Assembly (NCBI GenBank): GCA_040219515.1
Contig: JAVJSI010000004.1
Location: forward strand, 62,001-126,000
Length of the DNA: 64,000 bases
Direction of reading: 5' to 3'
Origin: Acidimicrobiales bacterium
Lineage (GTDB): Bacteria > Actinomycetota > Acidimicrobiia > Acidimicrobiales > Aldehydirespiratoraceae
The notes under the pieces: model-generated
What the model was told of the DNA's origin: nothing
Seen by the model: the letters and a program-made list of their open reading frames with translations, nothing else
Databases searched by the model: none
Shown here: positions 15,404-18,093 of the stretch, one piece after another
Layout: each line of letters opens with the position of its first letter
Position numbering within the stretch: the first letter of the stretch is position 1
Translations under genes and position numbers: made by a program

Positions 15404-15410
15404 AAGGAGA
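15404..15410 (+). promoter_or_regulatory. Strong ribosome-binding site AAGGAGA of the lipoprotein operon
   Basis: AAGGAGA lies six bases before the ATG at 15417. It is one of the best Shine-Dalgarno matches in a window where most first genes lack one. Confidence 0.75.
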
Positions 15411-15416
15411 ACGCTC

Positions 15417-16379
15417 ATGCGCGCTCGCGCGACACTGCGGCTGCTCGCCGCCCTTTTCGCTCTGACCCTCATCGCCTCGGCCTGCGGGGACGATGACGAG
15501 TCCACCACGGCCACCGACGACACGGCCGACGACGATGTGGCCAACGATGAGACGGCCACCGACGACATGGCCGACGGTGACATGGACCATGACGACATGG
15601 CCGATCACGAACACGATGACGACATGGACCATGACGACATGGCCGACGGCGACATTGACCATGACGACATGGCCGATCACGAACACGGCGTCGTCGAGGT
15701 GGCTGCCGACGGCGCGCCGACCGTCGATCTCGACGTCGTCGCCGACCCCGCCGGCGGGGTCAACATCCACGTGATGACCGAGAACTTCACGCCCAACCCC
15801 CAGGCGGCTTCGACCGACCATGTCGAGGGCGAGGGGCACTTCCACCTCTATGTCGACGGTGAGAAGGTCCTGCGGTTCTACGACGAGTGGATCTACTACG
15901 CCGGCGTGACCGAGGGTGACGTCGAGATCGGCGTGTCGGTCAACGCCAACGACCACCGCACCTATGCCGTGGACGGCGAGGAGATCCGGGCCGACATGGC
16001 GTTCACCGTGCCCGAACACTCCCATGACGACCACTCCCACGAGGAGGCCGAGGGCGTGGAGTACGTCGGCGATGCGCCGGCACTCGGCCTCGAGGTCGTG
16101 GAGGATCCGATGTCGGGCTGGAATGCGTTCCTCACCGTCGGCGGCATGACTCTCAGTCCCGAGCACGCGTCCGGCGAGCACGTGGATGGTGAAGGTCATC
16201 TCCACATCTACGCCAACGGCCAGAAGCTCGGTCGTCTCTACGGCACCGCCACCCACCTGGCGGCGTTGCCCGAGGGTGAGGTCGAGATCTCGATCGTGGC
16301 CTACACCAACGATCACCAGCCCTACCTGGTCGACGGTCAGCCGGTCTCGGCCGCCACGACGGTCGCCGTGGCGCCGTGA
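15417..16379 (+). CDS. His/Asp/Met-rich lipoprotein with a duplicated beta domain
   Basis: The 320-residue product has a lipoprotein signal with lipobox ASAC (Cys23). Residues about 40-90 are a low-complexity run of DMDHDDMADHEH-like units, a plausible metal-binding array of His, Asp and Met. Two related domains follow (about 95-200 and 215-320), each with a [ED]GEGH[FL]H[LI]Y core and an NDH motif, joined by another His-rich linker (EHSHDDHSHEE). I know no function for it. The last bases overlap the next gene, and three coupled genes follow one strong ribosome-binding site. Metal capture at the outer face of the membrane is inferred from composition. Confidence 0.8.
   Translation: MRARATLRLLAALFALTLIASACGDDDESTTATDDTADDDVANDETATDDMADGDMDHDDMADHEHDDDMDHDDMADGDIDHDDMADHEHGVVEVAADGAPTVDLDVVADPAGGVNIHVMTENFTPNPQAASTDHVEGEGHFHLYVDGEKVLRFYDEWIYYAGVTEGDVEIGVSVNANDHRTYAVDGEEIRADMAFTVPEHSHDDHSHEEAEGVEYVGDAPALGLEVVEDPMSGWNAFLTVGGMTLSPEHASGEHVDGEGHLHIYANGQKLGRLYGTATHLAALPEGEVEISIVAYTNDHQPYLVDGQPVSAATTVAVAP
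15561..15686 (+). repeat. Coding tandem repeat (54-bp unit at 72-bp spacing)
   Basis: Bases 15561-15614 and 15633-15686 agree at 52 of 54 positions and encode the DDMADGDxDHDDMADHEH unit of the lipoprotein. The 18 bases between them repeat part of the unit. Such repeats can change copy number by slippage. Confidence 0.85.
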
Positions 16380-16744
16380 GGTTCCGGAGCCTCCTCATAC
16401 CTGTCGTCGTCGTTGCGCTGCTGGCTGCCGCGTGCGGCGACGACGGGGAGGCGAGCGCGCCAGCGGACGCGGGTGACGATGCCGCCGATGTGGTCATCGA
16501 ACTCGAGGTGGTCGACGGTGACCTCGTCGGTGGGTCCCGCCAGGTGGACGTCGGCCTCGGGCAATCGGTCGAGGTGGTCGTGTCGGGTGACAGCACCGAC
16601 CAGGTGCACATCCACGGGTACGACCTCTACGTCGATCTCGTCGACGGGGAGGGCAGCACCAGTTTCGATGCGCTGATCCCCGGCACCTTCGAGATCGAAC
16701 TCGAGGCGGCCGGACGGCTGCTCGTGCGAATGACCGTGTCGTGA
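16376..16744 (+). CDS. Small lipoprotein with a cupredoxin-like domain
   Basis: The 122-residue product has a lipoprotein signal with lipobox AAAC (Cys20). The mature part is an all-beta domain with the HIHGYD segment at 78-83, which resembles the first copper-ligand strand of cupredoxin-like proteins. The usual C-terminal Cys-His-Met ligand loop is absent, so copper binding is uncertain. Its GTG start overlaps the stop of the His-rich lipoprotein gene and its stop overlaps the start of the membrane-protein gene, so all three are translationally coupled. Confidence 0.75.
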   Translation: MRFRSLLIPVVVVALLAAACGDDGEASAPADAGDDAADVVIELEVVDGDLVGGSRQVDVGLGQSVEVVVSGDSTDQVHIHGYDLYVDLVDGEGSTSFDALIPGTFEIELEAAGRLLVRMTVS

Positions 16745-18093
16745 TCGGCACCCTGCTCGCCCACGGCATCGGCGGTCGCACCGACCTGCCGTTGCCCGCA
16801 TGGCAGCTGGCCTGGGCCGCCGGGTTCTCCGTGGCGATCTCGTTCGTCGCGCTCGGCGCATTCTGGGAGCGGCCCCACCTGGCCGCAGCAGCCCGGGGCC
16901 GGGCGCTGTGGACTGCGGTGGGGCCGCCCGCCCGAGTTCTCGAAGTCGTTCTCAAGGTGTGCGGCCTGGGGCTGTTCGGCGTGGTGCTCTATGCCGCATG
17001 GCGGGGCAACACGAACTTCGCGGTGAACATCGCGGGCGATGCCTTCCTGATCTGGTTCTGGGTCGGACTCCAGTTCGTGTCGGCCGTCTTCGGTGATGTG
17101 TGGCGGGCGTTCAACCCCTACTTCACGATCGCCGATTCGGCGGCGTGGGTGCGAGCGAAGGTGACCGGCACACCGATCTCCGACATCGAACACGGTGCGG
17201 CCACGCTCTGGCCGGCCACGATCGCGATCTTCGCCTATCTGTGGTTCGAGTTGGCCTACAACTCGCTGTGGTTCGAATCCGAGATCCGATCCGCCGCCCA
17301 CCCGCGATCGATCGCCGCGTTCCTCACCGTCTACAGCCTGGTCATGGTGGTCGGCTCGAGCGTGCGCGGGCGAGGCTGGGTCCGCACCGCCGACGGCTTC
17401 TCGGTCCTGTTCGCAAAGCTCGGCGCGATGGCGGTGTTCCACCTCGACGACGAACGTCGAATCCGCGTGCGACCGCCGCTGGCCGGTCTGGCCACGGTTG
17501 CGCCGGTCGTCGGCCTCGTGCCGTTCGTGCTCGTGGTGCTCGGCAGTACGTCGTTCGACGGGTTCACCCGGAGTTCGGTCTGGTTCGACATCGCCGGGGA
17601 CCGCGCCGGTTGGAGCCTGACGGTGGTCTCGACCATCGGCCTGCTGGCGATCATCTTGTTGGTCAGCATGATCTACATCTTCGCGATGAACCTGATGGCG
17701 AGTGTGACCGGCGACGACGCCAACGAGTTGGCGGCGGTCTTCGGCCCGACCCTCGTGCCGATCGCCGCGGCCTATGCGGTGGCGCACTACTTCAGCCTGC
17801 TCGTGCTCGACGGTCAGCGGATGTTCATCCAGATCTCCGACCCGCTCGGCCGGGGATGGGATCTGTTCGGGACCAAGGACTACGAGATCAACTGGTTGCT
17901 GGTGTCACCGAGCACGATCGCCTGGGTGCAGACGTTGGCGATCGCCATCGGGCACGTGTTGGCGGTGGCGGCCGCCCACGATCGGGCGATCTCGCGTTAC
18001 CCCCACGACGTGGCGGTGCGTTCCCAGTATCCGATGCTGGGGGTCATGGTCGTCTACACGGTGGTCGGTCTGTTCCTGCTCCTCGGGGTCTGA
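16741..18093 (+). CDS. Polytopic membrane protein of unknown function
   Basis: The 450-residue protein has about ten to eleven hydrophobic helices and no signal sequence. Polar residues recur in or beside helices (HYFSLLVLDGQRMF near 355, IGHVLAVAAAHD near 402), and His residues could coordinate metal. Similar actinobacterial proteins are sometimes labelled fenitrothion hydrolase-like from weak similarity; I do not rely on that. The GTG start overlaps the upstream lipoprotein stop. Partnered with two lipoproteins of metal-binding character, it may be the transporter or redox module of the set. Confidence 0.72.
   Translation: MIGTLLAHGIGGRTDLPLPAWQLAWAAGFSVAISFVALGAFWERPHLAAAARGRALWTAVGPPARVLEVVLKVCGLGLFGVVLYAAWRGNTNFAVNIAGDAFLIWFWVGLQFVSAVFGDVWRAFNPYFTIADSAAWVRAKVTGTPISDIEHGAATLWPATIAIFAYLWFELAYNSLWFESEIRSAAHPRSIAAFLTVYSLVMVVGSSVRGRGWVRTADGFSVLFAKLGAMAVFHLDDERRIRVRPPLAGLATVAPVVGLVPFVLVVLGSTSFDGFTRSSVWFDIAGDRAGWSLTVVSTIGLLAIILLVSMIYIFAMNLMASVTGDDANELAAVFGPTLVPIAAAYAVAHYFSLLVLDGQRMFIQISDPLGRGWDLFGTKDYEINWLLVSPSTIAWVQTLAIAIGHVLAVAAAHDRAISRYPHDVAVRSQYPMLGVMVVYTVVGLFLLLGV

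Follow-up and report, generated by a model that had tools for sequence, protein, structure and literature searches.

The window, a 64,000-nt stretch of an Acidimicrobiales genome (contig JAVJSI010000004.1), carries three genes on the same strand in the order g1-g2-g3, at positions 15417-16379, 16376-16744 and 16741-18093. The features of the locus are as follows.

15404..15409, + strand: AAGGAG ribosome-binding site, read from the sequence, 7 nt 5' of the g1 ATG (15417)
15417..16379, + strand: g1, lipoprotein with lipobox Cys23, an Asp/His/Met-rich stalk and two Ig/FnIII-like domains (alignments, AF2, fold search)
15506..15682, + strand: tandem-repeat stretch of g1 coding the Asp/His/Met array (TRF)
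15690..16016, + strand: g1 domain 1, residues 92-200, with EGHFH and NDH motifs (alignment, AF2)
16068..16376, + strand: g1 domain 2, residues 218-320, with EGHLH, H280 and NDH (alignment, AF2)
16376..16744, + strand: g2, cupredoxin-like lipoprotein (Cys20) with HIHGYD (alignment, profile matches)
16607..16624, + strand: HIHGYD of g2, its HxH invariant among the relatives collected
16741..18093, + strand: g3, ten-TM membrane protein of a family without a name (alignment, AF2)
17092..17118, + strand: GDVWRAFNP segment of g3, which aligns with GRIWCTICP (CxxxCP) of a Fer4_5 polyferredoxin
17785..17787, + strand: H349 of g3 (AHYF), conserved intramembrane His (alignments)
17953..17979, + strand: H405 and H413 of g3 (GHxxxVxxAHD), on one helix (alignments, AF2)

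Both junctions are 4-bp GTGA overlaps (g1/g2 at 16376-16379 and g2/g3 at 16741-16744). These overlaps and the ribosome-binding site ahead of the trio are as the original prediction had them. No sigma-70 promoter was found upstream of the trio, and a comparison of five relatives revealed no obvious conserved operator ahead of g1. Chance open reading frames were ruled out by the 66-83% protein identity in the nearest relatives and by the gene order, which is kept. Searches of Pfam, NCBIfam and PDB sequences with g1, g2 and g3 gave chance-level matches only, apart from a weak cupredoxin signal in g2.

The tandem-repeat His/Asp/Met array and the duplicated domain with GEGH-x-H cores originally described in g1 are both real. 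The array is visible in the DNA as a repeat with a 15-bp period. Across relatives the stalk remains Asp/His-rich, while its sequence and length vary. Each of the two related domains carries an (E)GHxH and an NDH motif, and G140, H141, H143, H180, G260, H261, H280 and H300 are invariant in an alignment of 13-14 relatives. The AF2 model has two separate β-sandwich domains with block means of about 88-97 pLDDT, and the fold search matched it to FnIII/Ig folds at Z values of up to 9.1; these matches give the fold, not the function. Domain 2 is 53% identical over 58 aa to the domain at the C-terminus of a PCuAC protein from Sulfitobacter.

The small lipoprotein g2 contains the HIHGYD strand that had been read as cupredoxin-like. 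In the alignment of close relatives H78 and H80 never vary, and HxH is present in 84 of 84 unique domains, a collection that required an [HN]xH motif and could miss sequences without it. A Gly and a Glu near the last strands are also conserved. The Pfam scan gives a weak cupredoxin match (E 0.047), and a profile match to two-domain laccases around HVHG is similarly weak (E 0.028). A g1-g2 fusion homologue comes just under the cut-off for Cupredoxin_1 (E 2.8e-5, 24.5 of 27 bits). Unlike cupredoxins, g2 combines its conserved HxH and Glu with no C-terminal Cys-His-Met set of type-1 ligands: there is no Cys past the lipobox, and conservation over the 84 domains reveals no such Cys, C-terminal His and Met. 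By its scores, g2 is borderline cupredoxin-like.

For g3, the AF2 model (mean pLDDT 73.6, pTM 0.77) and hydropathy agree on about ten transmembrane helices, the number first proposed, and the model and the positive-inside pattern place the N-terminus outside. In its own genus g3 has no signal peptide, while most relatives have one (...AxA|HGxGGRxDLPxP). H8, E170, D273, H349, H405, H413, D414 and Q429 are invariant in a 28-sequence Acidimicrobiia alignment, and H349, H405 and H413 are kept in 9 of 10 sequences spanning mycobacteria, alphaproteobacteria and haloarchaea. These three are conserved intramembrane histidines, in agreement with the membrane histidines noted earlier. Neither g3 nor its relatives match a Pfam or NCBIfam family above cut-off. 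Foldseek with the AF2 model of g3 returned no significant match (best an MFS protein, E 0.056, prob 0.20), and VIA-align gave Z up to 6.5, a helical-bundle level only; the lack of a significant fold match does not prove a new fold. Nor does it prove that g3 differs in fold from the MFS copper importers CcoA/CalT, to whose MFS fold the search gave no significant resemblance.

The ancestry of g3 is indicated by one locus, L072, in a genome of the same class as the window organism, which encodes a NapH/NosR-type Fer4_5 (PF12801) protein. The g3 profile aligns with this polyferredoxin over the membrane domain, scoring 24 and 40 bits in the two halves, and the Fer4_5 protein as a query retrieves g3 genes. 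Its GRIWCTICP aligns with GDVWRAFNP of g3. Unlike NapH/NosR polyferredoxins, g3 has WRAFNP in place of CxxxCP, no CxxxCP motif being found in its alignments, and it has three conserved histidines, which are not present in the L072 protein in the alignment. The L072 locus is a link between NapH/NosR proteins and g3. Because of the alignment in both halves, the corresponding motifs and the missing histidines in L072, g3 looks like a polyferredoxin relative with intramembrane histidines and without iron-sulfur cysteines. At L072:2009-4883, in this Acidimicrobiia genome, the Fer4_5 gene lies between genes for a COX2-type cupredoxin and a cupredoxin-cytochrome c fusion.

Of 61 close relatives sampled, 41 have g3; in the wider samples it was found in 68 of 197 genomes of the class and in 67 of 296 of the phylum, and relatives also occur on alphaproteobacterial and haloarchaeal plasmids. 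Among the 61 related genomes, 36 have both g2 and g3, 5 have g3 only, none has g2 only and 20 have neither (Fisher p 9e-12, without phylogenetic correction). Two members of the own family, G006 and G014, lack g1, g2 and g3 together. In 14 family members g2 lies away from g3, mostly sharing one open frame with a g1 match. At most loci of more distant genomes g2 immediately precedes g3, or else g2 and a g1 domain are parts of a single protein; g1 is often single-domain and fused to g2. From the co-occurrence, the shared absence and the position of g2 beside g3 or fused to a g1 domain, g2-g3 is read as the core module and g1 as accessory. The original prediction took the trio as the unit and looked to its conservation in other genomes, with independent occurrence of the genes as the counter-evidence. 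Here g2 and g3 do co-occur, and g2 is never seen without g3 in the 61 genomes, but g1 is not obligatory, and g1-like proteins follow cbtB-cbtA on alphaproteobacterial plasmids with no g3 nearby. The strict trio as a system was rejected, g1 being dispensable and g2 and g3 sometimes standing at separate loci.

Several neighborhoods connect the module with copper. Genes for copper membrane monooxygenases (CuMMO, pmoCAB-like) lie within about 10 kb of g2-g3 on three actinobacterial plasmids, in Mycolicibacterium chubuense NBB4, M. dioxanotrophicus PH-06 and Rhodococcus WAY2. On M. gallinarum pJCM6399, g2-g3 is surrounded by ctaD and by genes for CopC, a metal-sensing regulator, COX subunit III, CtaG and a heavy-metal P-type ATPase. 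Another g3 on this plasmid adjoins heavy-metal ATPase genes and one for a multicopper oxidase. CopC is also encoded on two more mycobacterial plasmids, at a distance of about 8-10 kb. Plasmids are enriched for metal islands. In Acidimicrobiia family f55 the gene order is ctaE-ctaF-ctaG-g2-g3 (names by sequence similarity). Three g3 loci have SCO1/SenC genes nearby, one has a plastocyanin gene, and in the haloarchaeon Natrononativus SCO-TlpA-CcdA adjoins g3. A Sulfitobacter protein combines a PCuAC domain (PF04314, above cut-off) with a C-terminal g1 domain, and its gene is divergent from g3. The genome that carries the trio encodes COX2 and CtaG in a single cluster and gave no CopC match. A copper- or COX-family gene is present within about 7 kb in 10 of 40 g3 loci and in none of 20 control stretches, drawn from the same genomes or from similar ones (p about 0.01), a count that leaves out three self-type matches, g1-g2 fusions matched via the PCuAC reference. 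This enrichment is suggestive only, because some of the seed proteins had been taken from g3 loci and the controls were few.

Other neighborhoods count against a copper-supply reading, as does the absence from g2 of the Cys and Met of a type-1 copper site. In the own genus no copper or COX gene adjoins the trio. Alphaproteobacterial g3 relatives sit in nicotinate-catabolism clusters (6-hydroxynicotinate reductase, molybdopterin hydroxylase). The g1-only relatives follow cobalt-transport genes (cbtBA), and in the Actinomarina-like, ~1-Mb genomes of family f40, genes for ZnuA and a Fur-family regulator are beside g3. A ZIP gene is near one g3 locus.

Known copper systems offer several comparisons. 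Like CopC/CopD (PcoC/PcoD, YcnJ), the module would pair an extracytoplasmic copper-binding protein with a polytopic membrane partner, here predicted from sequence. CopD has been implicated in Cu uptake (PMC7558416). Proteobacterial pmo/amo operons include genes for copC, copD and PCuAC (PMC6189053), a linkage that parallels g2-g3 near actinobacterial CuMMO genes. In the Pfam scan CopC (PF04234) matched none of g1, g2 and g3, and CopD (PF05425) matched neither g3 nor its relatives. PCuAC (PF04314) is an extracytoplasmic copper chaperone, and its Sulfitobacter representative, encoded beside g3, is joined to a g1 domain. Neither g1 nor g2 matched PF04314, nor was the PCuAC motif H(M)X10MX21HXM (PMC9145763) seen in either protein. 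Caa3_CtaG (PF09678) is polytopic with conserved His, and is adjacent to g2-g3 in f55; its conserved His residues and an Asp have been suggested as metal ligands (PMC9145763). It differs in that the own genome encodes a separate CtaG, and PF09678 gave no match to g3 and relatives in the Pfam scan. Judged by sequence, the module would work like extracytoplasmic copper handling of the CopC/CopD kind but fails membership of CopC, CopD, PCuAC and CtaG. We also found no description of the module in literature on the g3 family, on NBB4/PH-06 or on 'fenitrothion hydrolase', a name used for such proteins. The earlier statement that there is no characterized equivalent therefore holds as tested, g3 having no Pfam/NCBIfam family, fold match or literature.

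Gene order, domain make-up, residue conservation, co-occurrence and linkage or fusion to copper genes are read from the sequences; metal binding, copper as the metal, the direction of transfer and the relay order from g1 to g2 to g3 are what we infer. As the module stands repeatedly beside copper enzymes and copper chaperones, g1-g3 probably encode an extracytoplasmic copper-supply module. The surface lipoproteins g1 and g2 would collect and hold copper on the outer side of the membrane, g1 contributing its Asp/His-rich stalk and two His-bearing Ig-like domains and g2 its cupredoxin-like domain with HxH. They would hand copper to g3, the His-lined ten-helix membrane protein, which would pass it to membrane copper enzymes or carry it across the membrane. 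Recipients could be cytochrome c oxidase here and the copper membrane monooxygenase in mycobacteria and rhodococci. As for the metal handling originally proposed for the trio, the role is well supported by the co-occurrence, the PCuAC fusion and the linkage to COX/CtaG, SCO, CopC and CuMMO genes, and the trio as its unit was not upheld.

The origin of g3 and the nicotinate clusters make a serious alternative of a membrane redox protein, a cysteine-less NapH/NosR relative with histidines for heme or quinone chemistry and with g2 and g1 as extracytoplasmic electron or copper partners (e.g. a cupric reductase or an electron-transfer arm). The alignment with Fer4_5 in both halves, the cupredoxin and cytochrome c genes flanking the L072 relative, the hydroxynicotinate reductase and molybdopterin hydroxylase clusters and a HiPIP gene near g3 in Haloferax all fit it. 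Nevertheless, g3 is without CxxxCP motifs and the Fer4_5 relative without the g3 histidines, and most of the informative actinobacterial neighbors are copper chaperones, assembly factors and copper enzymes rather than electron carriers; we regard this explanation as rather unlikely. Copper tolerance is a less probable account, in which the lipoproteins would sequester excess copper and g3 would help to export or oxidize it. It would explain the Asp/His/Met-rich stalk of g1 and the mycobacterial plasmid copper islands with CopC, a CopY-type regulator, P-type ATPases and a multicopper oxidase, but the proximity of COX assembly genes, of SCO and of CuMMO clusters fits supply, and g3 is kept in streamlined genomes of about 1 Mb, where tolerance systems would be expected to be dispensable. 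It is quite improbable that another metal (cobalt, zinc or iron) is handled, with copper linkage in some branches only. The cbtB-cbtA, ZnuA/Fur and ZIP neighbors point in that direction, as does the gene upstream of the Haloferax g3 with its weak Iron_transport match; copper-type neighbors recur in more, and more distant, lineages, and the fusion partner of the g1 domain is a copper chaperone (PCuAC).

Returning to copper supply, a broader and more tentative proposal is that g2-g3, with or without g1, might be an unrecognized copper-delivery pathway that metallates cytochrome c oxidase and actinobacterial copper hydrocarbon monooxygenases through a NapH/NosR-related protein, histidines serving instead of the replaced cysteines. 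It would occur widely among Actinomycetota and have relatives in alphaproteobacteria and haloarchaea. To our knowledge, how actinobacterial cytochrome oxidase and copper hydrocarbon monooxygenases are fed with copper is poorly understood. Bacterial copper import has been analyzed in only a few cases (PMC7558416). A nameless conserved module linked to several copper enzymes provides direct gene targets for copper supply, and the g3 family could show the reuse of a redox membrane scaffold for metal handling.

Some further genes were observed around these loci. Single-domain, His-rich g1-like proteins are encoded directly downstream of cbtB-cbtA at L218:5830-6327, L220:7782-8306 and L221:7812-8315, beside or near DUF1636 on alphaproteobacterial plasmids. 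In Actinomarina-like L080 and L081, g3 is next to znuA and a Fur-family gene, and no g2 was detected beside it. Haloferax plasmids (L225:6343-13265 and L226:6192-12331) have a DUF7350/Iron_transport-like gene (the Iron_transport match is weak), a gene for a zinc-finger-like small protein, the g3 relative, a P-type ATPase and HiPIP; the ATPase is of the heavy-metal type and lies between the g3 relative and HiPIP. In mycobacterium-like genomes, a polytopic protein of ~610-650 aa (L140:4213-6048 and L145:3361-5190, also L142, L156, L211 and L213) has no Pfam/NCBIfam match and shows the motifs WDVSLHxGxGRD..LANPAHY and FGQDVTLWGPTHL. Together with a small 1-TM protein, it precedes g2-g3 on the same strand. 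In M. chubuense NBB4 a small 1-TM protein (MNETILAHGGQLTSDEIAFIGG...; L161:3127-3342) directly follows pmoCAB and resembles, by eye, the small open reading frame after g3 in other actinobacteria (L068, L082-L084 and L089-L096).
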